This document shows positions 36,614 through 63,637 of a stretch of DNA of 64,000 nt, one piece after another. The DNA comes from Turnera subulata (taxonomy: Eukaryota > Streptophyta > Magnoliopsida > Malpighiales > Passifloraceae). The position numbers and the translations under genes were made by a program. The DNA lies in the NCBI GenBank assembly GCA_028386065.3, contig JAKUCV010002878.1, forward strand, positions 50,068 through 114,067, written 5' to 3'. A model generated the notes under the pieces. That model was not told where the DNA came from. It did no database searches and saw only the letters and a list, made by a program, of their open reading frames with translations. The first letter of the stretch is position 1. Each line of letters opens with the position of its first letter.

Positions 36614-36615
36614 AT

Positions 36616-36628
36616 TGGTAGCGGAGCC
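36616..36628 (+). promoter_or_regulatory. Primer binding site TGGTAGCGGAGCC
   Basis: It lies two bases after the 5' LTR, the expected place for tRNA-primed minus-strand synthesis. It differs at two positions from the usual initiator-Met site TGGTATCAGAGC. The same sequence follows the LTRs of families A, B and C in this window. Confidence 0.75.
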
Positions 36629-36669
36629 TAACTCTCTGAAAGACTTAACCGTTTGAGAGGAAATTTTCT

Positions 36670-38200: not shown

Positions 38201-38232
38201 GTGATAGTGCAAAACCGGACCAATAGGTGACA

Positions 38233-38523
38233 ACATCGACGTTCTGTGATTTTCAGCTCACCTGATTTTCCAATCAGTAGCTTTAAAACATCGATGTTTT
38301 GTGATCAACATCGATGTTCCCATGAGAACTGCCAAGCCATAAATCAAGCATGCACATCGATGTTTTGTATCAAACATCGATGTTCGGTAAGAACTTTATT
38401 TTTACAGTAGTCTTTAAACATCGGTGTTCGTTTTCTACACATCGATGTTATTCATTCCAAGCTATTTAGAATTCCTTATCCAGTAATTAAAAACATCGAT
38501 GTATCAATTGTGAACATCGATGT
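38233..38523 (+). repeat. Palindrome pairs in the element's 3' internal region
   Basis: ACATCGATGT or one-base variants start at 38233, 38288, 38308, 38354, 38374, 38418, 38439, 38493 and 38514. Four pairs have 20- or 21-bp spacing. The same palindromic word as in the LTR lattice therefore also occurs in the 3' internal region, outside the LTR. Confidence 0.9.
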
Positions 38524-38625
38524 TCTACCATTGTTGTACTTACACACCTTAGAAATAAGTTGATTTCTCACATAAGTTAGGAAATTTAGGTAGCATGTTC
38601 ATGATTAAATGTTTCAGGCAGAGTA

Positions 38626-38892
38626 CTCAGATTCCTTTTAATTCAAGTAAAGCATGTAGTTAATGCACAATTGATCAAATTGAGAAACTCAGATTTCTTT
38701 AAGTAAAGCATGTAGTTAGTGCACAATTGATCAAATTGAGAAACACTAGCTTGTTGATGAACACTCACACAAGAAGAACTTTATGTCATACACATGCTGA
38801 AAGCAAAAATACTTTTATTGATTATAAAGATTGAGTACAGCTGCTGAATCTTAAAACACACACACACCTGAATCTTAAAACACACACACACA
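38626..38892 (+). repeat. Short tandem duplications and (AC)n
   Basis: A unit of about 58 bp containing 'aagcatgtagtta(a/g)tgcac' is repeated twice at 38626-38745. A second pair of repeats, 'ctgaatcttaaaacacacac', lies at about 38845-38892. No coding function is seen. Confidence 0.7.
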
Positions 38893-38954
38893 CTCGATTA
38901 CATCATATATTTTACAAATCACATATAAAAATACATAGCTATCATAATCTGCTT

Positions 38955-39391
38955 CTAACGATTCGGTACAGCTGTTACAGTGAAGCCATTAGGAGTATTG
39001 ACTATGTTAACCCTAATGCTATGAGTCCATGCAAACCACATTCCACCCGAGTTGTTCTGGCCAGGAAGCTCGAACCATTGTGTTGGTGGAAAGTGAAGAG
39101 GGATAACTCCATGATCTCCGGTTTGCTGCCATTGAGTCTCGGTAAGCAGAACCATATTTGGTTTATATTGGTTCTTCAGGTCTCGTAGGGTTCGAACAAA
39201 ATCTTGGGAACGTGCTGTGATACCCCTGCAGTTCCACACCAAAAGGCGAACCTTTGGCCAAGTGGGCGCTACTCCAGCTACTCGAGGAATGCTCTGAGCT
39301 GTCATTGTAATCTGGTAATGACTGCTCTCGTTCAATGTCTGGTAGGTTGGTTCCAACTGGAGCTCCTGAAACCTGTCAGAGATAAAAAATA
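38955..39391 (-). CDS. Antisense endonuclease-like ORF (aORF-B homologue), 5' end in gap
   Basis: On the strand opposite to gag, the frame reads FFISDRFQELQLEPTYQTLN, then TAQSIPRVAGVAPTWPKVRLL, VWNCRG, YKPNMVLLTETQW, GGMWFAW and ends TAVPNR with TAG at 38955. It aligns end to end with residues from about 85 onward of the 227-aa protein at 58835-59518. VWNCRG and LLTETQ are the first two motifs of LINE/APE-type endonucleases and keep the Asn and Glu. The later GDFN and SDH motifs are absent. The N-terminus lies in the run of N at 39392. Function is unknown; position and strand match the antisense cassettes of families A and C. Confidence 0.75.
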
Positions 39392-40237
39392 NNNNNNNNN
39401 NNNNNNNNNNNNNNNNNNNNNNNNNNNNNNNNNNNNNNNNNNNNNNNNNNNNNNNNNNNNNNNNNNNNNNNNNNNNNNNNNNNNNNNNNNNNNNNNNNNN
39501 NNNNNNNNNNNNNNNNNNNNNNNNNNNNNNNNNNNNNNNNNNNNNNNNNNNNNNNNNNNNNNNNNNNNNNNNNNNNNNNNNNNNNNNNNNNNNNNNNNNN
39601 NNNNNNNNNNNNNNNNNNNNNNNNNNNNNNNNNNNNNNNNNNNNNNNNNNNNNNNNNNNNNNNNNNNNNNNNNNNNNNNNNNNNNNNNNNNNNNNNNNNN
39701 NNNNNNNNNNNNNNNNNNNNNNNNNNNNNNNNNNNNNNNNNNNNNNNNNNNNNNNNNNNNNNNNNNNNNNNNNNNNNNNNNNNNNNNNNNNNNNNNNNNN
39801 NNNNNNNNNNNNNNNNNNNNNNNNNNNNNNNNNNNNNNNNNNNNNNNNNNNNNNNNNNNNNNNNNNNNNNNNNNNNNNNNNNNNNNNNNNNNNNNNNNNN
39901 NNNNNNNNNNNNNNNNNNNNNNNNNNNNNNNNNNNNNNNNNNNNNNNNNNNNNNNNNNNNNNNNNNNNNNNNNNNNNNNNNNNNNNNNNNNNNNNNNNNN
40001 NNNNNNNNNNNNNNNNNNNNNNNNNNNNNNNNNNNNNNNNNNNNNNNNNNNNNNNNNNNNNNNNNNNNNNNNNNNNNNNNNNNNNNNNNNNNNNNNNNNN
40101 NNNNNNNNNNNNNNNNNNNNNNNNNNNNNNNNNNNNNNNNNNNNNNNNNNNNNNNNNNNNNNNNNNNNNNNNNNNNNNNNNNNNNNNNNNNNNNNNNNNN
40201 NNNNNNNNNNNNNNNNNNNNNNNNNNNNNNNNNNNNN
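39392..40237. other. Assembly gap (846 N)
   Basis: The run of N hides the start of the antisense ORF, the polypurine tract and about the first 84 bp of the second LTR. A homologue of antisense ORF-A could also lie here. Confidence 1.
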
Positions 40238-41667
40238 GTCAAACCAATCCTCAAAGCAAAAGAAACCAATCAAGAAGCAAAGGATCAAAGTAAATGAGCA
40301 CAAGAATTGAAGAGCCAAAGAAAGAAGAGTTAGATTCATAAATTGTACAAGGTATAACACTCAACTCTTCTAGGACATTGGCTCAAAATAAAATGAATTT
40401 TGCTCATGCATAACATAACATATTTCCAAGCATAAAAATATTTTTCGAGCAATGAACATCGATGTCCCAATTTTGAACATCGATGCCCTGCCTTGAAACC
40501 AAGCTTTCGAGAAGGTTTCTAAGCTTTGAACATCGATGTCCAATATTGGAACATCGATGTCCTGCACTAAAATAATTTTTCCAAAAGTAGGCAGTAGTTT
40601 ATAACATCGATGTCCAATATCTGAACATCGATGTACTCATGACCGTTATGCTAAAAAATTGCTTTGAAGAGTTTGAACATCGATGTCCTATTTCATAACA
40701 TCGATGTCCTATTGAATCAGGTCTCAAGATTGTTTTGGGAATGTCCAAAACATCGATGTTCAACTAATGAACATCGATGTTATTTTGTCTCGGGTCTTGG
40801 ACAATGTCTTGTAGAACATCGATGTCCTTCTAGCCAACATCGATGTTCTAGTGACCGTTAGCCCAATAATTCATATTCACTGGCCAGGACATCGATGTCC
40901 ACCTTTACAACATCGATGTCCTTATGACCGTTGGACCAATAATGCATACTCAAAGGCTAGAACATCGATGTCCTGATTTGCAACATCGATGTTCAGCCGA
41001 CAAGAGCAGATATACTTTTCACCTTTCCATGTTACTTTGTTTAAAGATGTTTTGAATTGAGCTTTCAAAGGTAATACATGTTTTTAACCTTATAAATAGA
41101 GCATGTAGGTCTCTGTTTTAAGGAAATCAACTCTCTACATTCAAGTATTCATTGCATACATTCATCAAAATCAAAATTGAGCCAATATCCTTTGAGGATT
41201 GAGAGTTGCCCTTTTAGAGCTTAAATTCTGTAACTCATATCCACTCTTTTGAGAGTTCTTGTTTGAGTGATTGTGTTGTTATACACTTTAAGGGAGGTTA
41301 GTTCCCTTGTTGAGATTCATAGGAAGAGGGGTATATCTTCTTGTGAGAGAAGTCTTGAAGTGAGGTATCTTCAAGCAAGAGTATTGAGGTTCATGTGACT
41401 TGAACTCTCAGGTTTAGGAATCTTGTAATTAGAATTCCTAGGTTGTAAACGGTTTGTTAAGCACCCGGAAGCTTAACATAGATAGTGAAATCTTCAAGAG
41501 AGTCTCTTGAAGGACTGGATTAGCCACACAAGTAGTGTGTGTGTGAACCAGGATAAATTGCTTGTGTCCTTCAATCTTTTTAATTCCGCATTTATTTCCT
41601 GCTTATTTCGTTTTAATCCGATAAACGCTATTCACCCCCCCTCTAGCGTAGGGCTATTGTTCTAACA
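40238..41667 (+). repeat. SIRE-type 3' LTR (start hidden by gap)
   Basis: It matches 35205-36613 of the 5' LTR and ends TTCTAACA. It holds the complete version of the palindrome lattice. Confidence 0.93.
40456..40992 (+). repeat. Complete palindrome lattice in SIRE-type 3' LTR
   Basis: Eight pairs of ACATCGATGT start at 40456/40477, 40530/40551, 40604/40625, 40677/40698, 40750/40771, 40816/40837, 40889/40910 and 40962/40983. Every pair is spaced exactly 21 bp. Pair-to-pair distances are 74, 74, 73, 73, 66, 73 and 73 bp. One of the 16 decamers (40477) has a single mismatch. Confidence 0.95.
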
Positions 41668-41852
41668 TGCATATGTTTTAATTGGGCCATTGGGCCGGAT
41701 GGTTGTTGTTGTTGATGTCCCCGGGGTTCGGGTGACGAGTTCCACATTGGGCCGAAGGGCCGGTTTTCAATTTGATATTGGGCTGTTGGCCAGTTTATTG
41801 TTTTATACACTGTATGCAGTTGCTTTGTTGGTCGAGTTGTTACAGTTCCGGC

Positions 41853-47137: not shown

Positions 47138-49876
47138 TGAAACGCCCCGTCCCGTATTTACCGTACACAGTAAACACGAGCCGGAACTGTGACGACCCGA
47201 CCAATCAAGGCCCAGCATATAGTGTAAACAACAATAACTCGGGCCCAACGGCCCAAAATAATAAACATCGTAAATAACAATACCGGCCCAATGGCCCAAT
47301 AATAGTAAAACAGTGCACAGCGAAAGACTTATAAAACTCACATAAACACTGTATGCATAGATGCAAACTATTGATCCGAGCCCTGTCCAAGGGATAACGC
47401 TGCAGCCTGTCTGGAATGCATCAACCTGTACCAAAAGTAACTCATCCTACGGGATGAAAGCCCGCAGGTGAGGGGTGAGTCCGAAGTGCTCACCGACGAA
47501 GGAAAGACAATCAATATGCAACTAAAAATTACTCAAGTCGAAAACACAGGCTAAACAGCCCAACCAAAAGACTCGACCCAAAGCCGGTCCAAGACCGAAA
47601 AGACTCAATAAAAACCAATTACCCAATTTTATCTTTTCCGGGCCCCGTCACGGATAAGCTAGGGTCGTACCAGGTTATCAACCTGTTCCTGGTGCCAGTT
47701 CAAAAAGAACCCAGGGATAGACATCCCAAATATAACAAACCGGGATAGACATCCCAAGCATAGACATGCTTATCACACGAACCCAGATCATGGCCACCAC
47801 AAAACAGTCTCTAACCATCCAGTTGTACCTCTACTTACCACGTGACAATTATATTACCGTCGTCAAAAACCAAACTCAGGGATCGACATCCCTAACCAAA
47901 ATACCGGGATAGACATCCATCCAAAATACCAAGGATCGACATCCTTGTCACAATTCATTAATTATACCATTACTCTTAATCCGAAAAAAACACAGAAAAT
48001 CAACACGGGATAAACATCCCAAAAATACCCAACAAGACTCCGGGATTAACATCCCGAACCAAAACACAGCAAAAGCACATTCGACAATGCACAATCATCA
48101 AAACATGATAACCGAGTAATATAGGCACATATTGAAGGAAATCCATCCTCACCTTGGCCGATTACTCAACTTCGGAAATAATGACCGGTCCGACGCCGGC
48201 TCCTCGGGAAACTGCCCGATATCCAAACCTATACCACAAAACCATACATACATATAAATGCACATAATCGGTATACTATGATGCCAATACTATGAAATAT
48301 CCCATCCCGGTTATATATCCTTTATTATTAACTTTTACCGAAAATATTTAACCGTACGTATTTCCGAATATAATCTCGGTACCATACTTTAATTAAAATT
48401 CTTTTCAAAATATATTTTCATAAAATAACCATAATTTCCAAAATAATAATATCCATAATTTTTCCAGAAAAATAATAACCTATTTATAATTTTCAGAAAA
48501 TATTTATATAGTATTTATCTTTTTCTAATTATATATAATAATACTTTCCAACACAAAATATAATTAACTTAAATTTACAAAATACATATTTATTTACATA
48601 AACCACAATCACAATTTCACAGACGAAAATAATATACATATTAATTTCCAGAAATTATTTTCAAGGCATATATATTTATTTTTCAAACTAACCATAATAA
48701 TTTACAAACGAAACATAATTATTTATCAAAGTAAATATATTTATATTTTCTTGGAAATACCAGAATTAAATTGGCAGTAATTTACTCAAAATAATTATAT
48801 AATTTTTTTTCAAAAGTAAATACCAGAATTATTATATATAAAGATATATATATTTTTTAAAAAAATAAAACAAAAGAAAACCAACCCAGGCGCGACCCAG
48901 CCAGAAGCATCCGGGTCGGACGCGGGTCGTGGGTTGCTCACCTCAGGTGACGTAGCGCGACGGCGGGAGAAGAAGGGCGAGCGCGACGGGAAGGAAGGGA
49001 CGAGGTCGACACGCTGAGGCGAGCTCGGGGGCGGTGGAAGGCCAAGGCTGTCGGCAGCGGCGGCAGAAACGAAGGAAGCAGGATCCGACGGGTTGCTCAC
49101 GGGTCGCTGGCGTGTGGCGGCGGATCCGGCGACGTAAGGAGGAGGCGGCAACGGGGGTAAGGTCGCGCCGGCTTGGGGGAGCGTCTGGTGGCGGCGGTGT
49201 GTGGAGAAGACGGCCGGAACTCTTCCCCATGTACAGTAACCGGAGGAAGAAATGGGTTGACGGTGAACAGTGGGTAACCGGGTTTCTTTTTTTTCCATTT
49301 TTCTTCTTTTTCTCTAATTTCTCTGATTTTTTTTTCCTGTTCTATTTTCTGTTTCTTTTTTTTTTCATTTCTTTTTTTTCTTTTTTTTTCTTCTTCCTCT
49401 CACTGTTTTCCTGTTTTTCTTTTTTTTTCTTTTCTTTTTCCTCCCTTTTTTTTCTCCCTTTTTCTTTTCTCTCTTTTTCTTTTTCTCTCTTTTTCTCTCC
49501 TTTCTTTTTTTTTTCTTCTCCTCTTCCTCACCCGGCTGCCTCCTTATATAAACTGAAATTTTTACTATTTAACATGTGATATCAATAATACAGTTCGTCC
49601 GTATTACGGGCGAGTCCGATCCGGACCAGAAAATAACAGATACCTCCTTAGTTATTTTCCGGTGTGATTTTCCGAGAAATTCCGAAACCCGAAAAATACC
49701 AACTTAGGTTCGAAAAAAATCCGCGGGAAAATCGCGAGTGCGGGAAAACCCTCGATTTCGAAAACAACTCCCGATTTACCTTGAATTAATTACCCAAGAT
49801 TAATTCAGCAGTAAATCACGGTAAAACGACTTCTACAGTCCGGTAAAAATCCAAAATTTTTACCCGGGCTGTTACA
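47138..49876 (-). repeat. Family-A element, 3' LTR
   Basis: This is a 2739-bp LTR, nearly identical to the right LTR where compared, so insertion is fairly recent. In window orientation it contains a hairpin array (47714-48060), an AT-rich block, a GC-rich block (48890-49240) and a pyrimidine tract (49280-49520). Confidence 0.92.
47714..48060 (-). repeat. Hairpin array in family-A 3' LTR
   Basis: Dispersed small inverted repeats share an AT-4 nt-AT core: GGGAT-AGAC-ATCCC (twice), AAGCAT-AGAC-ATGCTT, AGGGAT-CGAC-ATCCCT, CAAGGAT-CGAC-ATCCTTG, GGGAT-AAAC-ATCCC and CGGGAT-TAAC-ATCCCG. The arms differ in length and sequence but stay complementary. The same series occurs at 52852-53190. Confidence 0.85.
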
Positions 49877-50020
49877 GACTACCCACCTTAAAAAGAATTT
49901 CGGCCCCGAAATTCCGTCTTATCCGTGTGTCCTACCACGATAAGATTCTGGCACACTCTGCCAGGTATCCAACCACAACCCGAGATACCGCCTATACCCT
50001 TAAGCGACATCTCGTCCTCT

Positions 50021-50028
50021 TATAAATA
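50021..50028 (+). promoter_or_regulatory. TATA box of antisense ORF-A (family A)
   Basis: TATAAATA stands 42 bp before the ATG at 50063. The family-C element has TATAAAA at the equivalent place (57434-57440, 43 bp before its ATG). Confidence 0.55.
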
Positions 50029-50062
50029 CCAAACCTCATGACTGGCATACTCACACACAGTC

Positions 50063-50440
50063 ATGGACTCTCCACTCCGATCTCGAACAACCTCAGACTC
50101 CAAGAACAACAGCTACATCGGCGGCACGGCTTTCCCAACAAGCTCCGATGAAGAACCTCCGAAGAAACGCTTCTAGACCAACATCTTCGGCCTGAAGGAG
50201 CACATGGTCGTTTCCCCAAAACGACGAAAGAAGCGTGCCGGCAAGAAAGCTGAAGATCGTAAGGGCAAGGCGGTAGCTGAGAGCAGCACTCCGCAACAGA
50301 AGCTGACGCAACTGAACTTCTCGCTGAAGAAGATCAGCTCGGCGGTGGCGCAAATCGAACTGGCGTGTGCGGAACTGTTCCCACACATGGAAAATGTCAA
50401 AAATTTTGTAAAAGATCTAGAGAAGCAAGTAGCTCAGTAG
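50063..50440 (+). pseudogene. Antisense ORF-A, basic NLS-like protein (nonsense copy)
   Basis: The frame is antisense to the element and begins MDSPLRSRTTSDSKNNSYIGG. It matches the intact ORF at 57477-57857 through to the C-terminus (KDLEKQV). A TAG at 50174-50176 replaces the Lys after PPKKRF, so only 37 codons are read. One acidic codon is missing relative to the other copy, without loss of frame. An A-rich stretch with AATAAA-type signals follows (50470-50487). Function is unknown. Confidence 0.7.
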
Positions 50441-50667
50441 AGTACTCCTTCTCCTGTTGTAAACCTTATAAAATAAATAAAATAAATTTCCTTTTAAATC
50501 AAAATCTCTTGTTATGAAATCTCATGTTAAACGGAAAATAAAACATCTCAAAGCAAAATAAAAATCGACTATAAGAATATAAAATCAAAGAAAAGAAAAT
50601 TAAAACCAAAACTCGTTTAACAAAATCAAAACGAAAAAAAATTAAAACAAAATATGTTTCATGATCG

Positions 50668-50922
50668 GTGCTCGTATCGGACGTAAACATCCTCGAATCA
50701 CGAAACGTAACGTACGCAGCTAACGGTGACGTCTGTTTCGTTAACTCGCACGGCGATGATCATGGGAACGTCATGTGTCCCTCGAAAGAAACGTTACCCA
50801 CTTGTTCACAATTTCCGCATGAGCCAAAACATCTGTCTCGTCTCGTATCTCTCCACAATGTCCGAACAGCTGTAAACTTGTCGCACATGTACTCCACTCG
50901 AGGTGTGGTCCCGTCTGTCTAG
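50668..50922 (+). pseudogene. Possible antisense ORF-C (frameshifted start)
   Basis: The frame LVSDVNILESRNVT...EPKHLSRLV...VRTAVNLSHM...VPSV matches the open frame at 58184-58462. Here an extra G after ATGATCG puts the ATG out of frame. An indel in the middle keeps the frame. I do not recognise the protein; it could be conserved non-coding sequence that happens to be open. Confidence 0.4.
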
Positions 50923-51157
50923 CCTCAACGGTCACGGATGCATGTGATAAAAGATGCAGAAAAATATAATAAAACCACGGAAAGAAAAGACAAAGTAGCC
51001 AGAGCGAAAGAAAATCATGTGATGGAAATAGGCTGAAAAACTCTGGCATGGGTCCGAAAAACGCGTAAAGTAACAAAGCAATAAATGAAAGCAACGGTAA
51101 ATTTTCAAAAAGCAAAATCTTAAAAATCAAAAACGATAAATACGCTCCCCATAAGAG

Positions 51158-51164
51158 TATAAAA
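51158..51164 (+). promoter_or_regulatory. TATA box of antisense ORF-B (family A)
   Basis: TATAAAA lies 113 bp before the ORF-B ATG, in a conserved setting (gctcccc...gagtataaaag...ggagcgg) also seen at 58700-58706. The 'gctccc' and 'gggagc' around it form an inverted repeat. Confidence 0.6.
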
Positions 51165-51270
51165 GAAGGAGCGGTGATGTGTGAATCATCAAAGCATCAA
51201 AAGCAAACAAAACGTCCAGGCAAATAAAACACAACGCTCGAAAAACAAAACCCCATACGTCCAATTCAAG

Positions 51271-51954
51271 ATGCCTGCTCCCTCATCAGTCTTCTTCGTC
51301 GAAGGTGCCAATCTCGGCAGGAAAAACCGTCTGGCGTACAGCATGGTCAACGAACGCGCTGAAGAACTACCAAACGAACTAGGCAGAATGCAACGGCTAG
51401 TCTTCGTCGACGAACACTACTCATCGTGGTTCTTCATCACTCCAATGGAAGAGGTGTTCTTCCTAGAGGAGCATAGAACACTGAGGACCTCATACTACGG
51501 ATCGGCAAACTCCGTGATGTTCTTCATCTCCGAAAGGCTACAGGAGTTCAACCTGGAGTCCACTTGCCAAACTGTGGAGCAAGGTGCCTACTACCAACTC
51601 TCAATGACGGCTCAGAGCATGCCCAGAATGACTCGACTACCTCCAACCTGGCCAAAGGTACGGCTACTGGTGTGGAACTGCAGAGGAGTAGCAAGGCGTG
51701 CACAGAAGTTCTCACGCACTCTGAGAGACCTGAAGAACGAGTATAAGCCGAACATGGTTCTTCTGACGGAGACGTAGTGGCAACCACGGGACGATCACGG
51801 TCTGATTCCACTCCGGTTCCCTCAAGCTAACCAGTTCGAGATTCCTGGCCAACGCGACAGAGGCGGCATGTGGTTCTCGTGGAGCGACAGAGTCACGGTC
51901 AACATCAACAATGATCCAAACAGTTTCCGTGTCAACGTCGTTCCGAATCGTTAA
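51271..51954 (+). pseudogene. Antisense ORF-B, endonuclease-like protein (one nonsense codon)
   Basis: This is a 228-codon frame antisense to the element, with the same length and ends as 58835-59518 and no indels. A single TAG at 51775-51777 stands where the other copy has CAG (Gln169), just after the LLTET motif. Apart from the stop, about 19 residues differ over 227, while many more codons differ only synonymously. The stop lies within the endonuclease-like part, so this copy would make a 168-aa product. Confidence 0.8.
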
Positions 51955-52250
51955 ATGTATTTTCTTTATTTTTATAAAATATCAAGAATCAATGTAATAT
52001 TTCCCTTTTTATAAAATATTAATGTAATATTTCCGTTTGTACTATCAAAATATTAATATTATCAATAATATTTGTATTTTCGCATATTTATGACGTCATT
52101 TACCTCATATGTGTATGTCTGCGACAGCTGGCGTCCCTTGACTGGATCCATAATGCACTAACTAAATGATATAAAATAATAAACAAATGGAGCGAACTAT
52201 GCAAACAAGACAACAAACACACAGAGACTGGCCAACAAGACCTAACGCCC

Positions 52251-52262
52251 GCTCCGCTACCA
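52251..52262 (-). promoter_or_regulatory. Primer binding site of family-A element
   Basis: On the minus strand TGGTAGCGGAGC follows the LTR end (…CGTTTCA) after a short TTT spacer. It fixes the element's sense as minus and hence the ORFs at 50063-51954 as antisense. Confidence 0.75.
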
Positions 52263-54098
52263 AAATGAAACGCCCCGTCCCGTATTTACCGTACACAGTA
52301 AACACGAGCCGGAACTGTGACGACCCGACCAATCAAGGCCCAGCATACAGTGTAAACAACAATAACTCGGGCCCAACGGCCCAAAATAATAAACATCGTA
52401 AATAACAATACCGGCCCAATGGCCCAATAATAGTAAAACAGTGCACAGCGAAAGACTTATAAAACTCACATAGACACTGTATGCATAGATGCAAACTATG
52501 AATCCGAGCCCTGTCCAAGGGATTACGCTGCAGCCTGTCTGGAATGCATCAACCTGTACCAAAAGTAACTCATCCTACGGGATGAAAGCCCGCAGGTGAG
52601 GGGTGAGTCCGAAGTGCTCACCGACGAAGGAAAGACAATCAATATGCAACTAAAAATTACTCAAGTCGAAAACACAGGCTAAACAGCCCAACCAAAAGAC
52701 TCGACCCAAAGCCGGTCCAAGACCGAAAAGACTCAATAAAAACCAATTACCCAATTTTATCTTTTCCGAGCCTCGTCACGGATAAGCTAGGGTCGTACCA
52801 GGTTATCAACCTGTTCCTGGTGCCAGATCAAAAAGAACCCAGGGATAGACATCCCAAATATAACAAACCGGGATAGACATCCAAAGCATAGACATGCTTA
52901 TCACACGAACCCAGATCATGGCCACCACAAAACAATCTCTAACCATCCGGTCGTACCTCTACTTACCACGTGACAATTATATTACCGTCATCAAAAACCA
53001 AACTCAGGGATCGACATCCCTAACCAAAATACCGGGATAGACATCCATCCAAAATACCAAGGATCGACATCCTTGTCACAATTCATTAATTATACCATTA
53101 CTCTTAATCCGAAAAAAAACACAGAAAATCAACACGGGATAAACATCCCAAAAATACCCAACAAGACTCGGGGATTAACATCTCGAACCAAAACACAGCA
53201 AAAGCACATTCGACAATGCATAATCATCAAAACATGATAACCGAGTAATATAGGCACATATTGAAGGAAATCCATCCTCACCTTGGCCGATTACTCAACT
53301 TCGGAAATAATGACCGGTCCGACGCCGGCTCCTCGGGAAACTGCCCGATATCCAAACCTATACCACAAAACCATACATACACATAAATGCACATAATCGG
53401 TATACTATGATGCCAATACTATGAAATATCCCATCCCGGTTATATATCCTTTATTATTAACTTTTACCGAAAATATTTGAAACACCCTAACCTAAATTCA
53501 CCCAACTAACAGTAATTACGGCAAACAGTACCACCACGTGGCCAACATATCATTAAAACAAGAACACATATTAATAAAAGGATAAATAGACAATCAAAAA
53601 CACAATCTTGTCACCTTGTGGGGATATCAACATTTGCACAGCGGAAGCATTTCATAGATATTCAGTAACATTTTATATGCAAGACACAATGCCTACTATA
53701 GGATCCGAGTCTTGTCCGAGGTGACGCCACAGCCGCCGGTATGCGAACCTAACCTGCAGGAACTGTGTGAGGGGTGAGACCAACCACTGTCTCACCGATA
53801 AACAAATAAACCACAGTATACATACAACCGCAAATACACCCAAGCCAACACAGAACACAATAGAAGTATAGCAAGCACAAACATAATATCGGTAACAACT
53901 TACCTGAACTAACTATACGTCAGACTCCTCATGGTAAAGCTAATCTCATAAACTCACCGACACCTGACGATAGACTTACCAATTTTATTATTAGGGCCCT
54001 ATCACGTAATAAGTATCGGCCGTGCCTGGTAGCCAGGTTAGCTAACCCCAGGGTACTCCCCGTTAATCCATAGATGTCACAAATCATACCACAAATAA

Positions 54099-54195
54099 CC
54101 GAGTCCCGCAGTCCTCGGCGGAAGTCCCGCAGTCCTTCCTTTAACAAATCAACTGAGTCCCGCAGTCCTCAGCCGGGAGTCCACGCAGTCCTCCC
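54099..54195 (-). repeat. Four hairpins with constant loop and changing arms
   Basis: The loop TCCCGCAGTC (11-nt variant in the last) is embraced by four different complementary arm pairs: CCGAG/CTCGG (54099-54118), GGAAG/CTTCC (54120-54139), CTGAG/CTCAG (54153-54172) and GGGAG/CTCCC (54175-54195). The other LTR has the same array at 60471-60567 with two single-base breaks. Confidence 0.9.
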
Positions 54196-54744
54196 TATCA
54201 TATCACAAATCACAAGGCAACTACCATCTGGCCGTACCAATACCTGTCACGTGACAACCTAGATGTCTAGATGTTATTACCACTGTTTATTATTATTTCT
54301 TATTCCACTGTCCAACAGTAACTCATCATATTCACGTTCCCGAGCAGGCTATCAGCCTCACAGCTCCTCTGGGAATTCAATCACAATGTCAGAATACCGG
54401 GTCACTGTCACTAATAACTCAATATCTCGTATCTCGTATGGTCATCACAATACACCCATCAACATCACAGAGTTCAATAATCAACCACAGTAGTCATGAA
54501 CACATAACAATAATCACAACAGCAGCCAACAATGACATGACAGGTATAACAAGATAACAATCAAACAAACAACCGGGGTATCACGGGCAGTATACCGAAG
54601 TTTATAAGTTTATATCCTCACCTGATACTCCTTAGAAGCCGATAGAAGCCGATATCTGGTTAAGCCTCGATATCCCTATATTTAGAACAACAGAAATCAC
54701 TTACAATGCACAACAAGAATGATCATGCATGATGTTGGTTTTAG

Positions 54745-55308
54745 TAATTATTATACGGCTTGCCTTTTATCGTATTTATTTTATCATTTCAGTAATTTCC
54801 TTTACTTTGAATTTAGCATTCCCAATTAATTAAAGATTAGCTCGTTATATGTTTTCAACCGATTTACAAATTATACGTAATTTTAAATTAGAACCGAAAC
54901 CGAGCGTCCAAGCCGATATCCCAGCCCTTTGGTCGCTCGTGGTCTACATGCTCATCATGTATAACCATATATNNNNNNNNNNNNNNNNNNNNNNNNNNNN
55001 NNNNNNNNNNNNNNNNNNNNNNNNNNNNNNNNNNNNNNNNNNNNNNNNNNNNNNNNNNNNNNNNNNNNNNNNNNNNNNNNTAATTATTATACGGCTTGCC
55101 TTTTATCGTATTTATTTTATCATTTCAGTAATTTCCTTTACTTTGAATTTAGCATTCCCAATTAATTAAAGATTAGCTCGTTATATGTTTTCAACCGATT
55201 TACAAATTATACGTAATTTTAAATTAGAACCGAAACCGAGCGTCCAAGCCGATATCCCAGCCCTTTGGTCGCTCGTGGTCTACATGCTCATCATGTATAA
55301 CCATATAT
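54745..55308. other. Assembly gap (54973-55080) with identical flanks
   Basis: A run of 108 N is bordered by two copies of the same 228-bp sequence (54745-54972 and 55081-55308), with no difference that I can see. Failed merging of overlapping contig ends is the likeliest cause; a true tandem duplication is the alternative. Confidence 0.85.
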
Positions 55309-57433
55309 ATTTTTATAGTCTATGCTATTTTAGTCATTTAATATAATACAATAGATATATGTATGCATATAACCGATAGTGTAAAATAATAATACCATTG
55401 TTACGTTAGTAAATTACTTCCGGTAAATTAACAATCCTGGCATAGCCATAAAATAGATTTTGTACGGTTTATGTAAAAGACTTATAAATATGTAGTTAAA
55501 TCCAAATAGAATAATATCATTTTTAATCCGTAAATTAAATTGTTAATTTCATAATTACATGTATATATATGCTAAAAGAGGTAATTATTATAAAATGTAT
55601 GTATGCTTAGTAAATCACATACGACCGTATGTATGTATATACATATTCATATATTTATAAAGATAACAACCGTAAATAAACTAAATTCAAATTTATCATC
55701 ATTATTTTTATCCAAGTTATTTCCTTGATAATATATACTTTCCTAAAATTATTATTATTAATAACTATTATTTATTATACTTCCAGAATATAGATATGTA
55801 TTTATTTCCGTATAATATAGATTCTACTAACTAAATTCTGTATTTTTCTTTCCTATTTTCGGACTGGGCTAGACCAAGCCTTGGTCCAATTCAAAATTTT
55901 CAACAGTGCCAGGCCCAGGTGCAGAGCCCAACACGCTAAGCCCAGCTAACCCATCTGATTTCAACCCAGGCCCTAATAAACCCTTAACCCACAAAACATT
56001 CCCAAGCCTAACCCATATACAATCCGGCCCAAGCTAAACAAAACCTAGCCCAACTAAACCAAACCTAGCCCAAACCTACTTAACCTAATCTACCCAGCAT
56101 ATGTCTTCTTCTTCAACTCACCTTGGTGGGTGGTCGACGGCGGCGGCAGCAAGGAGGTGACGAGCGGCGGCACGAGCTGGAGGAAGCGAGGAGGAAGACA
56201 AGGCAACTGCGGCGTCGAGGTTAGTGGTGGGGCAGTGGTGAAGGTGGCGGTCGGTGGGTGTGGTCGGGCACGGCTTGGTGGTGGTTGTCGCGGGCGGCTT
56301 CACGGTGAGGTGTGGTGATGATGGTGGTTACTTGGTGGTGCTGGTCTGCGGTGGATGGTGGTGTTGTGGTGGTGGTCGGCAGTGAGGAGGTGGCGGGGAC
56401 GGCGCGGTGCAGCAGTAGGGCGGCGAGAAGAGGAGGCGATCTGGTGGCGGCGGTCGTACTTGTTGGTGGTTGCTGCTGCATGCGGCGGGAGGAAGCGAGA
56501 GTGAAGAGGAAGAAAGTGGTGGAGGTGGTTCGGATGGTGGCGGCCGGAAGAGATGAAGAAGAGGAAGTGGGGGTGACGACGTTTTTTTTTTTTAAAAATA
56601 TATTTACTGTATTGGAAAAATGGATGCTAGGTAGTTGTATTTGGTGTAGGAAGTGTAGGTAGGAGTTGCAGATTCTAACTGGGAAGTAGTTTCTAAACTG
56701 GGGAGCTATTTGGGGAAATTGGTTGTAGACGATACTGGTGGTTGGTTCGGCAGATGAATATGGGTTGTAGGCAACTATTGTGGCAGACAAGATATGGTGA
56801 TGGAAAAAAGAAAGAAAAAGATGTCTGCCATTACCTTTAATAATTGAACAGATTATGATGTAGCTGACAGGTGCGCGCCAATAGCAGAAGATTCTGAACC
56901 AAAAAAATTATGCCACATTTGCCCTTCCTGCTTCTTCTGGTTTCCAAATAATCTCAGGGGCATAATCGTCTTTCCGAAATTTGTCCGGTTCCGAAATTAC
57001 AACTTAGGCTCGGAAAATCCAATTAACTCTCCCGAGCGTTGCCCAAGTCTCGGAATTGAAAACCGAGGCTCGGTTAGCCATGTAGAATTCCCGAAAGTTA
57101 ATTCCGAGGCTCGAAGATACTCCAGACGTCGTATATCCTTGGCAATCGAAAGGAAGCTCGGTTACTCCCGGTAAAACTCGGAAAACTCGGTGCGGTAGAA
57201 TTCACGGTTACAACGATAGAATCTATTTACCGTTGTAAGAGTTTAAAACGACTCGGTAAAATCTCAAAAATTTACCTGGGTCGTTACAATCTACCCACCT
57301 TAAAAAGAATTTCGTCCCCGAAATTCCGTGTCTTATCCGTGGGTCCTACCACGATAAGCTTCTGATACACTCCACCAGGTGTCCAAACCCAACGTGATAT
57401 GTCGCTTATATCCTTACGCGACATCTCATCCTC

Positions 57434-57440
57434 TATAAAA
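57434..57440 (+). promoter_or_regulatory. TATA box of antisense ORF-A (family C)
   Basis: TATAAAA lies 43 bp before the ATG at 57477, at the same distance as its family-A counterpart. Confidence 0.55.
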
Positions 57441-57476
57441 ACCAAACCTCATGGCTGGCAACTCACGCACACAGCC

Positions 57477-57857
57477 ATGGATTCCCCACTGAGAACAAGA
57501 ACAACTTCAGACTCGGAGGACAACAGCTACATCGGTGGCAGAGCTTTCCAAACAAGCTCCGATGAAGAGGAACCTCCAAAGAAGCACTTCAAGACGAACA
57601 TCATCGGCCTGGAAGAGCACATGGTCGTTTCCCCAAAACGACGGAAGAAGCGTGCCGGCAAGAAGGCTGAAGATCGCAAGGGCAAGGCGGTAGCTGAGAG
57701 TAGCACTCCGCAACAGAAGTTGACACAACTGAACTTCTCGCTGAAGAAGATCAGCTCGGCGGTAGCACTGATAGAACTGGCGTGCATGGAGCTCTTTTCT
57801 CACATGGAAAATGCCAAGAAGATTGTAAAAGATCTAGAGAAGCAAGTAACTCCATAG
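57477..57857 (+). CDS. Antisense ORF-A, small basic NLS-like protein
   Basis: This 126-aa frame runs opposite to the element's sense strand, starting at ATG 57477 (MDSPLRTRTTSDSEDN). Residues 1-35 are Ser/acidic-rich. A strongly basic run (PKRRKKRAGKKAEDRKGK, about 53-70) looks like a nuclear localisation signal. Residues 78-126 are predicted helical (QQKLTQLNFSLKKISSAVALIELA...KKIVKDLEKQV) and could form a coiled coil. I know no family with this sequence. The family-A copy (50063-50440) differs by substitutions, one in-frame codon and a nonsense codon. A TATA box lies 43 bp upstream and AATAAA-type signals follow at about 57898-57910, so it looks like a self-contained transcription unit. A nuclear role, perhaps nucleic-acid binding, is inference only. 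Confidence 0.7.
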   Translation: MDSPLRTRTTSDSEDNSYIGGRAFQTSSDEEEPPKKHFKTNIIGLEEHMVVSPKRRKKRAGKKAEDRKGKAVAESSTPQQKLTQLNFSLKKISSAVALIELACMELFSHMENAKKIVKDLEKQVTP

Positions 57858-58183
57858 AGAGTACTTCTTCTCTGTTGTATAACCTTATTATGAAATTAAT
57901 AAAATAAATTTCTTTTTTAAATCAAAATTCTTGTTAAATTATGTAAACTCGTGCTTACAGAAGGTTAAAAAAAAATATTTCAAGCAAAACGAAATCAACA
58001 ATATGAATATAAAATCAAATATAAATAAACTAAAATATTAAGAGTACAATTTGCCCCTTTTATTTTGTAGAGTTACATTTTATTTTTAGTTATTATTCTT
58101 ATATTTTAGTTTTTATTCTTTTAATTTTTGTTTGAGCAATTTGTTTTAGTTTTGTTTTTCTTTAAAAAATAAAACACGTTTTC

Positions 58184-58462
58184 ATGATCGTGCTCGTATC
58201 GGACGTAAACATCCTCGAATCACGAAACGTAACACGTACAGCTAACGGTGACGTCGGTTCCCACGTGAAAAAGACGACCGTTATCATGCACAGCGATGAT
58301 CACGGGAACGTCCTGTGTCTCTCGAAGGACACGTTACCCACTTGTTCAAAAATTCCGCATGAGCCAAAATGTCTTTCTTGTCTCGTATCTCACCACGATG
58401 TCCGAACAGCTGTAAACTTGTCGCACATGCGTTCTATTCGAGATGTGGTCCCATCTGTCTAG
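58184..58462 (+). CDS. Possible antisense ORF-C, unknown 92-aa protein
   Basis: The frame starts ATG 58184 (MIVLVSDVNILESRNVTRTANGD) and ends VRTAVNLSHM...VVPSV. The family-A element keeps much of the same reading at 50668-50922, including an indel that preserves the frame, but has a frameshift at the start. There is no known motif, signal peptide or membrane segment. It lies between ORF-A and the ORF-B promoter. Conservation could equally reflect a regulatory or structural role of the DNA. Confidence 0.4.
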   Translation: MIVLVSDVNILESRNVTRTANGDVGSHVKKTTVIMHSDDHGNVLCLSKDTLPTCSKIPHEPKCLSCLVSHHDVRTAVNLSHMRSIRDVVPSV

Positions 58463-58699
58463 CCTCAACAGTCACGAATGTAAGTGGTAAAAGATGCAAG
58501 AAAAAAATAACAAGACCGTAGAAAGATAAGACAAGGTAGCCGGAGCGAAGGAAATCAAGAGATGGAAAGAGACTGAAAAACTCTGGCACCGTAGTCCGAA
58601 AAAACGCGTGAAATAACTATGCAATAAATGAAAGCAACGGTAAAATTCAAAAAGCAAGATCTTGAAAATCAAAGACGGCAATCACGCTCCCCGTAAGAG

Positions 58700-58706
58700 T
58701 ATAAAA
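58700..58706 (+). promoter_or_regulatory. TATA box of antisense ORF-B (family C)
   Basis: TATAAAA in the conserved setting 'gctccccgtaagag...agggagcgg', 135 bp before the ATG at 58835. The same block precedes ORF-B in family A. Confidence 0.6.
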
Positions 58707-58834
58707 GAGGGAGCGGTGATGTGTAATTCATCAAAAGTGTTTTAAAAGCAATAAAACGCTCAAGCATAGAAAATACCACGGTCATAAAATAAAACCCTAC
58801 GCGTTCAGTAAAAACTCAAAATCTCCCAGTCAAA

Positions 58835-59518
58835 ATGCCTGCTCCATCGTCAGTGTTCTTTGTCGAAGGTGCCAACCTCGACAGAAGGAATCGTCTAGCC
58901 TACAGCATGGTCAACGAACGTGCTGAAGAGCTGCCGAATGAGCTCGGAAGAATGCCACGTCTAGTCTTCGTCGACGAGCTCTACTCGTCACGATTCTTCG
59001 TCACTCCAATGGAAGAGGTGTTCTTCCTGGAGGACCATGGGACACTGAGGACTTCATACTACGGCTCAGCAAACTCCGTGATGTTCTTCATCTCGGATAG
59101 GCTTCAGGAGTTCAACTTGGAGTCCACTTGCCAGACTGTGGAGCAAGGCGCTTACTACCAGCTCGCAATGACAGCCCAGAGCATACCCAGAATGACTCGG
59201 CTACCCCCAACCTGGCCAAAGGTACGGCTACTGGTGTGGAACTGCAGAGGTGTTGCAAGACGTGCACAGGAGTTCTCTCGTACTTTGAGGGATCTGAAGA
59301 ACCAGTACAAGCCGAACTTGGTTCTTCTGACGGAGACGCAGTGGCAACCACGAGACGATCACGGTCTGATTCCACTCCGATTCCCTCAAGCTAACCGGTT
59401 CGAGATTCCTGGCCAGCGCGACAGAGGCGGCATGTGGTTCTCGTGGAGCGACAGAGTCACGGTCAACGTCAACAGCGACGCAAACAGCTTCCGTGTCAAC
59501 GTCGTTGCGAACCGTTAA
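58835..59518 (+). CDS. Antisense ORF-B, protein with truncated LINE/APE endonuclease-like domain
   Basis: This intact 227-aa frame is antisense to the element, starting ATG 58835 (MPAPSSVFFVEGANLDRRN). Residues 1-125 match nothing I know. Residues 129-204 read KVRLLVWNCRGVARR, then YKPNLVLLTETQW and GGMWFSW. This follows the order of the first motifs of LINE endonucleases; compare KILAWNYRGLGN, PNMVFLSETRL and GGLALLW in the LINE at 1616-1850. Asn136 and Glu167 correspond to the catalytic/metal-binding pair. The protein ends (VVANR) before the GDFN and SDH motifs, so nuclease activity is doubtful. Homologues are at 51271-51954 (one nonsense codon) and 38955-39391. It has its own TATA box. Capture of a LINE 5' segment by an ancestral LTR element is the likely origin; a nucleic-acid-binding or dominant-negative role is speculation. 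Confidence 0.78.
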   Translation: MPAPSSVFFVEGANLDRRNRLAYSMVNERAEELPNELGRMPRLVFVDELYSSRFFVTPMEEVFFLEDHGTLRTSYYGSANSVMFFISDRLQEFNLESTCQTVEQGAYYQLAMTAQSIPRMTRLPPTWPKVRLLVWNCRGVARRAQEFSRTLRDLKNQYKPNLVLLTETQWQPRDDHGLIPLRFPQANRFEIPGQRDRGGMWFSWSDRVTVNVNSDANSFRVNVVANR

Positions 59519-59834
59519 TTGTATTTTTTTTTTTATAAAATATCAAAAATCCATGTAATATTTCCCTTTTTATAAATTGTCAATGTAATATTTCTATTCG
59601 CAATCAATATATTAATATTTCCCTTTGTATCAAAATATTAGCAATATTTATAATATTTGTATTTTTTGCACATTATGGCATCATTACCTCTTATGTGTAT
59701 GTTCCGCGACAGCTGACGTCCCTCGACTGGATCCATAGTGCACTAACTAAATGATGTAAATGCAAAATGATAAACATATGGAGCGAGCTATGCACAACAA
59801 GCAAGCAAAACAATGACCCAAGGACCTACAGCCC

Positions 59835-59846
59835 GCTCCGCTACCA
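59835..59846 (-). promoter_or_regulatory. Primer binding site of family-C element
   Basis: TGGTAGCGGAGC on the minus strand, directly downstream (in sense) of the LTR at 59850-61767 after a TTT spacer. It is identical to the site in family A. Confidence 0.75.
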
Positions 59847-59849
59847 AAA

Positions 59850-61767
59850 TGAAACACCCTAACCTAAATTCACCCAACTAACAGTAATTACGGCAAACAG
59901 TACCACCACGTGGCCAACATATCATTAAAGCAAGAACACATATTAATAAAAGGATAAATAGACAATCAAAAACACAATCTTGTCACCTTGTTTGGATATC
60001 AACATTTGCACAGCGGAAGCATTTCCTAGATATTCAGTAACATTTTATATGCAAGACACAATGCCTACTATAGGATCCGAGTCTTGTCCGAGGTGATGCC
60101 ACAGCCGCCGGTATGCGAACCTAACCTGCAGGAACTGTGTGAGGGGTGAGACCAACCACTGTCTCACCGATAAACAAATAAACCACAGTATACATACAAC
60201 CGCAAATACACCCAAGCCAACACAGAACACAATAGAAGTATAGCAAGCACAAACATAATATCGGTAACAACTTACCTGAACTAACTATACGTCAGACTCC
60301 TCATGGTAAAGCTAATCTCATAAACTCACCGACACCTGACGATAGACTTACCAATTTTATTATTAGGGCCCTGTCACGTAATAAGTATCGGCCGTGCCTG
60401 GTAGCCAGGTTAGCTAACCCCAGGGTACTCCCCGTTAATCCATAGATGTCACAAATCATACCACAAATAAACGAGTCCCGCAGTCCTCGGCGGAAGTCCC
60501 GCAGTCCTTCCTTTAACAAATCAACTGAGTCCCGCAGTCCTCAACCGGGAGTCCACGCAGTCCTCCCTATCATATCACAAATCACAAGGCGACTACCATC
60601 TGGCCGTACCAATACCTGTCACGTGACAACCTAGATGTCTAGATGTTATTACCACTGTTTATTATTATTTCTTATTCCACTGTCCAACAGTAACTCATCA
60701 TATTCACGTTCCCGAGCAGGCTATCAGCCTCACAGCTCCTCTGGGAATCCAATCACAATGTCAGAATACCGGGTCACTGTCACTAATAACTCAATATCTC
60801 GTATCTCGTATGGTCATCACAATACACCCATCAACATCACAGAGTTCAATAATCAACCACAGTAGTCATGAACACAACGGCGCGGTGCAGCAGTAGGGCG
60901 GCGAGAAGAGGAGGCGATCTGGTGGCGGCGGTCGCACTTGCTGGTGGTTGCTGCTGCGTGCGGCGGGAGGAAGCGAGAGTGAAGAGGAAGAAAGTGGTTG
61001 AGGTGGTTCGGATGGTGGCGGCCGGAAGAGATGAAGAAGAGGAAGTGGGGGTGACGACGTTTTTTTTTTTTTTTAAATATATTTACTGTATTGGAAAAAT
61101 GGATGCTAGGTAGTTGTATTTGGTGTAGGAAGTGTAGGTAGGAGTTGCAGATTCTAACTGGGAAGTAGTTTCTAAACTGGGGAGCTATTTGGGGAAATTG
61201 GTTGCAGACGATACTGGTGGTTGGTTCGGCAGATGAATATGGGTTGTAGGCAACTATTGTGGCAGACAAGATATGGTGATGGAAAAAAGAAAGAAAAAGA
61301 TGTCTGCCATTACCTTTAATAATTGGACAGATTATGATGTAGCTGACAGGTGCGCGCCAATAGCAGAAGATTCTGAACCAAAAAAATTATGCCACATTTG
61401 CCCTTCCTGCTTCTTCTGGTTTCCAAATAATCTCAGGGGCATAATCGTCTTTCCGAAATTCGTCTGGTTCCGAAATTACAACTTAGGCTCGGAAAATCCA
61501 ATTAACTCTCCCGAGCGTTGCCCAAGTCTCGGAATTGAAAACCGAGGCTCGGTTAGCCGTGTAGAATTCCCGAAAGTTAATTCCGAGGCTCGAAGATACT
61601 CCAGACGTCGTATATCCTTGGCAATCGAAAGGAAGCTCGGTTACTCCCGGTAAAACTCGGAAAACTCGGTGCGGTAGAATTCACGGTTACAACGATAGAA
61701 TCTATTTACCGTTGTAAGAGTTTAAAACGACTCAGTAAAATCTCAAAAATTTACCTGGGTCGTTACA
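59850..61767 (-). repeat. Family-C 5' LTR (short form)
   Basis: It copies 53478-about 54500 and about 56396-57288 with few substitutions, joined at 'gaacaca|acggcgcgg' near 60876. About 1.9 kb present in the other LTR is absent. It carries the hairpin array at 60471-60567. Confidence 0.92.
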
Positions 61768-63637
61768 ATATTTAACCGTACGTATTTCCGAATATAATCT
61801 CGGTACCATACGTTAATTAAAATTCTTTTCAAAATATATTTTCATAAAATAACCATAATTTCCAAAATAATAATATCCATATTTTTTCCAGAAAAATAAA
61901 AACCTATTTATAATTTTCAGAAAACATTTATATAGTATTTATCTTTTTCTAATTATATATAATAACACTTTCCAACACAAAATATAATTAACTTAAATTT
62001 ACAAAATACATATTTATTTACATAAACCACAATCACAATTTCACAGACGAAAATAATATACATATTAATTTCCAGAAATTATTTTCGAGGCATATATATT
62101 TATTTTTCAAACTAACCATAATAATTTACAAACGAAACATAATTATTTATCAAAGTAAATATATTTATATTTTCATGGAAATACCAGAATTAAATTGGCA
62201 GTAATTTACTCAAAACAATTATATAATTTTTTTTCAAAAGTAAATACCAGAATTATTATATATAAAGATATATATTTTTTTAAAAAATAAAACAAAAGAA
62301 AACCAACCCAGGCGCGACCCGGCCAGAAGCATCCGGGTCGGACGCGGGTCGTGGGTTGCTCACCTCGGGTGACGTAGCGCGACGGCGGGAGAAGAAGGGC
62401 GAGCGCGACGGGAAGGAAGGGACGAGGTCGGCACGCTGCGGCGAGCTCGGGGGCGGTGGAAGGCCGGCGGAAGGCTGTCGGCAGCGGCGGCAGAAACGAA
62501 GGAAGCAGGATCCGACGGGTTGCTCACGGGTCGCTGGCGCGTGGCGGCAACGGGGGTAAGGTCGCGCCGGCTTGGGGGAGCGTCTGGTGGCGGCAGTGTG
62601 TGGAGAAAACGGCCGGAACTCTTCCCCATGTACAGTAACCGGAGGAAGAAATGGGTTGACGGTGAACAGTGGGTAACCGGGTTTCTTTTTTTTCCATTTT
62701 TCTTCTTTTTCTTCTTTTTCTCTAATTTCTCTGATTTTCTTTTCCTTTTCTATTTTCTGTTTCTTTTTTTCATTTTTTTTCTTTTTTTTTTCTTCTTCCT
62801 CTCACTGTTTTCCTGTTTTTCTTTTTTTTTTCTTTTCTTAAAAAAAAGAAAAGAAAAAGGAGAGAATTTTTTCTCCCTTTTTCTTTTCTCTCTTTTTCTC
62901 TCCTTTTTTTTTTTCTTCTCCTCTTCCTCACCCGGCTGCCTCCTTATATAAACTGAAATTTTTACTATTTAACATGTGATATCAATAATACAGTTCGTCC
63001 GTATTACGGGTGAGTCCGATCCGGACCAGAAAATAACAGATACCTCCTTAGTTATTTTCCGGTGTGATTTTCCGAGAAATTCCGAAACCCGAAAAATACC
63101 AACTTAGGTTCGAAAAAATCCGCGGGAAAATCACGAGCATGGAAAAACCCTCGGTTTCGAAAACAACTCCCGATTTACCTTGAATTAATTACCCAAGATT
63201 AATTCAGCAGTAAATCACGGTAAAACGACTTCTACAGTCCGGTAAAAATCCAAAATTTTTACCCGGGCTGTTACATGCGGGGTTTCATCCCGTAGGATGA
63301 GTTGTTTGTAGTGCAGGAACGTACAGGGCAAGCTGAAGCGTACCCTCGGACAGGACTCGGATCCATTAGTTGCATTGGGCTTTGCATGTGTTGTCATGTG
63401 AGTTATAAGTCTTCCGCTCTGCATGTTTTTACTTTTGTTGGGCCATTGGGCCAGTTGAGTTATTACTGCTGTTATTGATGTTGGGCCGTAGGGCCATATT
63501 GTTGTTAATAATTTTTGGGCTGTCGAGCCAGGGTTTATGTTTTATACACTGTATGCTGGATTTGATTGGTCGGGTTGTCACAATTTCGGCACGTGTTTAC
63601 TGTGTACGGTAAATACGAGTCGGGGCGTCTCATAGTT

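Follow-up and report, generated by a model that had tools for sequence, protein, structure and literature searches.

Antisense genes under purifying selection in two nested LTR retrotransposons of Turnera subulata, with a related copy in a Sirevirus-like copia element

The window analysed here, a stretch of 64,000 nucleotides from Turnera subulata (contig JAKUCV010002878.1, positions 50,068 to 114,067 of the forward strand), contains two long-terminal-repeat (LTR) retrotransposons, A and C, whose interiors carry two short open reading frames (ORF-A and ORF-B), and a copia element, B, in which a third copy of ORF-B is partly visible (Table 1). The comparisons below draw on this one window, with two full copies and one partial copy (ORF-B only). 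Element C sits in the right (5') LTR of A, and the uninterrupted left LTR of A represents the empty site. The Kimura two-parameter (K2P) divergence between paired LTRs, calculated with LTR limits that differ by one or two bases from the final ones, is low (0.014 and 0.032 for two parts of A, 0.010 and 0.014 for two parts of C), and both insertions are therefore fairly young. As claimed in the original prediction, made by a model from the letters of this DNA, the LTRs of A and C are nearly unrelated, sharing a single 27-bp inverted match in blastn, and the interior is conserved. The homology is not confined to the genes; it spans the interior from the polypurine tract (PPT) to the primer-binding site (PBS), spacers included, and extends 10–36 bp into the LTRs, and four non-coding stretches around the ORFs are 68–87% identical with 8–111 gap columns each.

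In A and C the minus strand is the sense strand, judging from the PBS, the PPT and the strand of gag in element B, and the prediction had this right. Both elements carry the same 19-nucleotide PBS region, TTTTGGTAGCGGAGCGGGC, and the same PPT, AAGGTGGGTAG, on the minus strand. Within the window, TTTTGGTAGCGGAGCGGGC occurs with three or fewer mismatches only at these two sites (0 expected), and AAGGTGGGTAG is exact in A and C, with one further match, at three mismatches, at position 19405. An exact search for the 13-nucleotide PBS core, TTGGTAGCGGAGC, returns four sites, at 6950 (in a small element, D), 36615 (B), 52251 (A) and 59835 (C). Scored against the complement of what we take to be the initiator tRNA-Met, 10 of the first 12 bases match at each of the four sites, and over 18 bases the matches number 12 in A, B and C and 16 in D. 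In B the TTGGTAGCGGAGC motif directly follows the 5' LTR, and the gag gene lies on the same strand as the motif. Plus-strand sense was considered and rejected for A and C, as the opposite internal edges match the initiator tRNA-Met complement, the only one scored, at 4 of 12 bases as against 10 of 12. With the minus strand as sense, ORF-A and ORF-B are antisense.

Table 1. Coordinates of the elements and genes (positions within the window)
Feature	Position	Strand	Remarks
Element B	35121..41667	+	Sirevirus-like copia, pol deleted; target-site duplication (TSD) TGCAT at 35116-35120 / 41668-41672
Left LTR of B	35121-36613		
PBS of B	36615..36627	+	TTGGTAGCGGAGC
gag of B	36670..38098	+	two frames; Retrotran_gag_2
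Stretch past ORF-B stop in B	38709..38826	-	homologous to A 52057-52168, C 59642-59753
ORF-B homologue in B	38955..39389	-	144 residues visible; antisense to gag; cut by gap
Sequence gap in B	39392-40237		846 N, directly after ORF-B homologue
Element A	47138..63275	- (sense)	TSD TGCGG at 47133-47137 / 63276-63280; split by element C
3' LTR of A	47138..49876	-	2739 bp; TG...CA ends
PPT of A	49879..49889	-	AAGGTGGGTAG; beside 3' LTR
ORF-A, A copy	50063..50440	+	in-frame TAG 50174-50176
'ORF-C' region of A	50660..50930	+	non-coding; 6 ACGT cores
TATA box of ORF-B, A copy	51157..51165	+	CGCTCC / GGAGCG arms on either side
ORF-B, A copy	51271..51954	+	in-frame TAG 51775-51777
PBS region of A	52247..52265	-	TTTTGGTAGCGGAGCGGGC; directly inside right LTR
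5' LTR of A, left of C	52266..53477	-	
Element C	53478..61767	- (sense)	TSD ATATT at 53473-53477 / 61768-61772
Left LTR of C	53478-57288		
PPT of C	57291..57301	-	AAGGTGGGTAG; beside left LTR
ORF-A, C copy	57477..57857	+	126 aa, intact; basic (pI 9.5), KRRKKR stretch
'ORF-C' region of C	58178..58470	+	non-coding; 7 ACGT cores
ORF-B, C copy	58835..59518	+	227 aa, intact
PBS region of C	59831..59849	-	TTTTGGTAGCGGAGCGGGC, identical 19-mer; directly inside right LTR
Right LTR of C	59850-61767		
5' LTR of A, right of C	61768..63275	-	starts with TSD copy ATATT

The description of A and C as large retrotransposon derivatives (LARDs) devoid of gag and pol holds in part. Their structure fits, with long LTRs (2.7 kb in A; 1.9 kb on the right and 3.8 kb on the left in C), a PBS, a PPT and a target-site duplication, and, like LARDs, they would presumably be mobilised in trans. 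Neither gag nor pol was recognised in a partial test that covered two overlapping minus-strand frames of A with Pfam, and A and C by tblastn with one copia polyprotein and the long interspersed nuclear element (LINE) of this window as queries. The longest minus-strand frames encode 141 (A) and 108 (C) amino acids. LARD interiors are regarded as non-coding, and here A and C differ, their interiors holding two genes under selection. We note some further features of these elements. About 1.9 kb of the left LTR of C (54504-56398) lacks a counterpart in the right LTR and shows no obvious target duplication, being either an insertion or the result of a deletion in the other LTR; within it, a 228-bp exact duplicate flanking a 108-base N gap (54745-55308) is probably an assembly artefact. 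Diverged relatives of the LTR of A lie at 1-470, 34565-35122 and 63276-63633, and A appears to sit in one of these and B in another. A 68-bp tandem unit (3.2 copies, 46537-46757) adjoins the left end of A.

The coordinates of the ORFs in A and C were correctly predicted, and so was the integrity of ORF-B, whose two 684-bp frames are 89% identical with no indel; in ORF-A the identity is 87%, with a single 3-bp indel. A longer, 152-residue version of ORF-A from an in-frame ATG at 57399 was set aside, this ATG lying upstream of the TATA box (57434). Between A and C, ORF-B differs by 55 synonymous and 19 non-synonymous changes in 226 codons, in line with the threefold synonymous excess that had been counted by eye, and the changes fall 12, 6 and 56 times at the first, second and third codon positions. 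The ratio of non-synonymous to synonymous substitution rates (dN/dS), a calculation proposed with the prediction, is 0.08 for ORF-B (bootstrap 0.04–0.14; 226 codons, two stop positions excluded) and 0.12 for ORF-A (bootstrap 0.06–0.22; 124 codons, two excluded). LWL85, YN00 and maximum-likelihood (ML) estimates are 0.09–0.10 and 0.14–0.18, respectively, so that the four estimators, NG86 included, span 0.08–0.10 for ORF-B and 0.12–0.18 for ORF-A, in the range of purifying selection. When the observed substitutions are placed at random, 50.2 changed codons are obtained for ORF-B and 32.9 for ORF-A, as against the 20 and 17 observed, and none of 5000 placements is as low for either gene. The substitution pattern thus shows that purifying selection kept both antisense proteins while the element lineages were active.

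Could the frames be chance openings in GC-richer DNA, or the sense strand have been misread? Frames of at least 60 residues are indeed present on both strands of the two interiors. Against this stand the random placements, the dN/dS of about 0.1–0.2 by four methods, and an orientation backed by the PBS, the PPT and the gag of B; within the window such a reading is largely refuted, and we regard it as scarcely credible.

Conservation of an RNA rather than of a protein deserves more attention. Convergent transcription could generate double-stranded RNA that regulates the element, the frames being incidental, and antisense RNA control has been proposed for elements of this kind (PMC7264820). Four of five non-coding stretches have diverged by 12–20% and the fifth by 32%, compared with 34% at the synonymous sites of ORF-B, as would be expected if the RNA mattered; conserved promoters, however, are equally compatible with a protein gene. 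The gathering of ORF-B changes at third codon positions and the absence of an indel from 684 bp are features of a protein-coding frame. As a control, the three minus-strand frames over the ORF-B stretch give dN/dS values of 1.25, 0.13 and 4.54. The low value arises because the third positions of that frame coincide with those of ORF-B, and the frame contains 8–9 stops per copy. Taken together, a conserved RNA with incidental frames is very unlikely.

The prediction had also proposed a possible third conserved frame, ORF-C, between ORF-A and ORF-B. This we reject as a gene: its dN/dS is 0.94 (bootstrap 0.43–2.55), its changes are spread 12, 9 and 9 over the codon positions, and indels break the frame (a gap of 18 bp and, close to the ATG, an indel of 1 bp). 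The region nevertheless has diverged by only 12% between A and C, less than the synonymous sites of ORF-B, and its 6 (A) and 7 (C) ACGT cores compare with means of 1.0 and 1.2, and maxima of 5 and 6, in base shuffles. Possibly it is a distal promoter of ORF-B, as a bZIP-bound promoter might look. TATA boxes do occur at matching distances, as had been noted: a TATAAA lies 42 (A) and 43 bp (C) upstream of the ORF-A start and 113 and 135 bp upstream of the ORF-B start, the latter flanked in A and C alike by CGCTCC and GGAGCG arms.

The claim of a conserved cassette thus stands for both genes, with the qualification that the entire A/C interior is homologous and that each A copy has acquired an in-frame TAG. 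One stop per A-copy gene is what is expected of decay after insertion. From the LTR ages, 6–12 of the 20 non-synonymous changes of ORF-B (stop counted) would be neutral decay of this kind, which lowers the dN/dS of its mobile phase to about 0.05–0.08. Since the homology of A and C covers everything from PPT to PBS, spacers included, their common ancestor was already an element with both genes, and the selective constraint seen between the two acted inside travelling elements. This bears on the proposal that ORF-A and ORF-B come from a conserved host family, were taken up separately and owe their low dN/dS to selection in the host. Each gene does resemble a complete unit, with a TATA box and an AT-rich 3' end, and plant LTR elements with captured host fragments are known (PMC7264820). 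The shared spacers, by contrast, point to one capture before the split, followed by selection inside the elements.

Database searches also weigh on host capture, for ORF-B has no significant annotated protein match, though in the same protein database a receptor-like kinase gene of the window retrieves many plant proteins (among the best 120 matches listed). A single-sequence search with ORF-B yielded 108 candidates, none at E 0.001, and a three-sequence profile 652 candidates, one at E 0.63. Among viral contigs two stretches fit a pattern and none was confirmed; against PDB sequences, one search gave a kinase at E 0.17 and another gave none. The best Pfam matches of ORF-A are weak (PF08317, E 0.034; PF05508, E 0.049). 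We therefore hold separate capture from the host to be unlikely for A and C; a host-gene origin is possible for the deeper split between A/C and B.

The original prediction missed three things, namely a third copy of ORF-B in the gag-bearing copia element B, the LINE-endonuclease-like part of ORF-B, and the antisense accessory ORFs already described in other plant elements. The visible residues of the B copy are 62–64% identical to those of C and A. Between B and C, 54 codons are changed as against 83.6 at random, with none of 5000 placements as conservative, and dN/dS between B and C or A is 0.12–0.14 by LWL85 and ML, with dS near saturation and no value from NG86 or YN00. The similarity extends past the gene: it is weak directly after the ORF-B stop, and about 120–245 bp beyond the stop, at matching distance in A, B and C, a shared stretch reappears (local scores of 45 and 48 against null maxima of 36 and 37; 0 of 1000 each). 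In the sense direction all three elements have the same order, shared flank, antisense ORF-B and 3' LTR, which fits A and C as gag-pol-less derivatives of a B-like layout.

Element B itself shares several traits with Sireviruses (Ty1/copia). Its copia-type gag matches Retrotran_gag_2 at 29.3 bits (cut-off 27), a domain not specific to Sireviruses, and a CCHC-like motif, with a truncated protease remnant after the gag, was read by eye; pol is absent from the visible sequence. The CA/ATTGG junction and a C-rich stretch close to the LTR end (by eye) are Sirevirus traits, and the PBS of B differs by two changes from the published 9-bp Sirevirus PBS, TATCAGAGC (PMC2829016). The palindrome ACATCGATGT occurs 33 times (35424-40992; 0.06 expected), always within B, with 11 copies in the left LTR before the TATA box, 7 in the interior between gag and ORF-B, and 15 in the right LTR. 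This matches the layout described for Sireviruses, in which palindromes are repeated before the TATA box and before the env-type gene (PMC2829016). Unlike 12 of the 13 motifs published there, ACATCGATGT lacks a CGG-CCG core and is closer to the Tnd-1 motif (PMC2829016). Extra ORFs in SIRE elements usually have the sense orientation (eORF-3'F; PMC6317226), whereas in B the antisense ORF-B occupies that place.

The ORF-B of B might instead belong to a nested insertion of an A/C-like element, leaving one kind of carrier only. The 846-N gap that follows the gene and the homology that carries on into the 3' flank would both be accommodated by such an event. However, TTGGTAGCGGAGC is absent between gag and ORF-B of B by exact search, self-comparison finds no repeat of at least 100 bp in 38100-38954 (LTR ends were not searched separately), and in other respects B is an ordinary Sirevirus-like element whose target-site duplication matches. 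We consider a nested insertion improbable.

The C-terminal part of ORF-B apparently derives from a LINE endonuclease. Residues ~129–213 of the C copy resemble the first half of this fold, sharing the WNCRG-type and TET motifs and the beta-alpha-beta start of the L1-type enzymes. The ORF-B profile aligns by hhalign with the endonuclease of the LINE in this window (E 2.5e-5, probability score 75) and with P0121 (E 5e-8, probability score 95). Pfam endonuclease scores for ORF-B are below threshold, with PF03372 at E 0.0004 for the copy in element B. In a Foldseek search, ranks 1–12 are all LINE-1 endonucleases or ORF2p (best E 3.9e-4), and 1 of 811 matches falls under E 0.001; the AlphaFold2 model of whole ORF-B was of too low a quality for such a search. 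VIA-align of the C-terminal model did not separate endonuclease/exonuclease/phosphatase (EEP) folds from DNA methyltransferases, and its top row is a methyltransferase. Asn136 and Glu167, which we assign to the first half of the endonuclease active site as its N and E, are invariant in all three copies. The GDFN (present in P0121) and DH motifs of the second half are not in ORF-B: in both end-open copies (C and B) the protein ends with NR-stop before them, about 100 residues into the domain. Lacking the second half of the fold, ORF-B is most likely no nuclease. The window LINE (1596-4617) has endonuclease and reverse transcriptase domains broken into several frames.

We judge it moderately probable that A and C are non-autonomous LTR retrotransposons that have lost gag-pol and carry a selected antisense accessory module, partly LINE-derived and shared by unrelated LTR elements. 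They would be copied through a minus-strand RNA begun in the right-hand LTR and primed at the tRNA-Met-like PBS, with gag-pol provided by other elements, while two short transcription units would run the other way from TATA boxes of their own, as the anatomy suggests. ORF-A would yield a 126-residue basic protein, probably nuclear, and ORF-B a 227-residue protein that joins an N-terminal part of no known kind with the opening half of a LINE-type endonuclease. The latter probably binds nucleic acid or a partner and may aid its own elements by counter-silencing or in nuclear steps, a role that the sequence constrains weakly.

Antisense selection was called unusual in the prediction; the selection is supported, and the adjective overstated, as conserved antisense ORFs form a recognised class in plant LTR elements (aORF-3R or eORF-3'R; PMC7264820, PMC6317226, PMC11963269). 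Examples near the 3' LTR include maize Grande gene23, rice RIRE2, Silene Retand ORF4 and bean PvRetro13 (PMC7264820, PMC11963269), and for gene23 a promoter of its own and a nuclear product are described (PMC7264820). ORF-A and ORF-B are alike in being antisense, near the 3' LTR and conserved. The orientation opposite to gag-pol is seen directly in B, where gag is on the plus strand and ORF-B on the minus strand, and through PBS and PPT only in A and C. As to a position between pol and the 3' LTR, ORF-B of element B lies between the protease remnant and the 3' LTR, with a gap there and pol absent, and A and C offer no gag-pol as a reference. Conservation is seen in dN/dS values of 0.08–0.18, from two copies and, for ORF-B, a partial third. 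We suggest that the module is of the aORF-3R type, and that A and C may have arisen by gag-pol loss from carriers with the module in the pol–3' LTR interval. They differ from that class in that two antisense genes are left without recognisable gag-pol, and ORF-B differs by its LINE-endonuclease-like half domain.

Other comparisons are looser. The antisense ORFs of Retand elements mostly carry TRP28 (Transposase_28) and are a fixed feature that includes non-autonomous members (PMC11963269). The antisense ORF as a feature is thus alike, whereas the domain differs and B is a copia element; at E up to 10, Pfam gives neither Transposase_28 (PF04195) nor a plant mobile domain or SMC match for ORF-A or ORF-B. 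Sharing of accessory ORFs between unrelated retroelement classes is described for bdelloid rotifers, where, unlike ORF-A and ORF-B, the shared ORF3s encode a GDSL esterase/lipase or a DEDDy exonuclease (PMC5408684). The REXdb survey took extra ORFs of at least 250 codons only (PMC6317226), and both frames fall below this limit. Among the titles and abstracts listed in the open-access literature we found no LINE-endonuclease-derived antisense ORF in an LTR element and no antisense-only LTR element.

According to one review, the origin and the function of most antisense ORFs are unknown, and their lack of similarity to other transposable elements argues against an origin from inserted elements (PMC7264820). 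ORF-B is a candidate for precisely such an origin, as an antisense ORF part of which is recognisably LINE-derived. Moreover, selection in gag-pol-less elements separates the antisense genes from the replication genes, and so asks what advantage the antisense proteins give their own element. We put forward, as a tentative possibility, that 'antisense-only' LTR retrotransposons form a class that discarded gag-pol and kept two antisense genes under selection, one of them from half a LINE endonuclease, with the module having passed between copia (Sirevirus) elements and another LTR lineage unrelated to them. As a helper that diffuses freely brings no gain to an element without gag-pol, the module, if such a class exists, would need to work in cis, as an element-specific anti-silencing or packaging/nuclear-entry factor. 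It may be worthwhile to read 'non-coding' LARD-like interiors, and frames below survey cut-offs, on both strands.

The window contains other elements and a host gene. Element D (5864-8302) consists of LTR-like repeats at 5864-6948 and 7227-8302, 93% identical and separated by ~280 bp; TTGGTAGCGGAGCCAGGTT directly follows the first repeat and includes the PBS core common to A, B and C, and D is like a terminal-repeat retrotransposon in miniature (TRIM-like). A copia element at 12634-18429 has an uninterrupted 1337-residue frame (13848-17861, minus strand) and LTRs 96% identical. The receptor-like kinase gene (25161-28325), of phytosulfokine-receptor type, has its best named matches in Populus, Jatropha and Ricinus (75–78% identical), which suggests a host in or near Malpighiales, and one other match is 80% identical.

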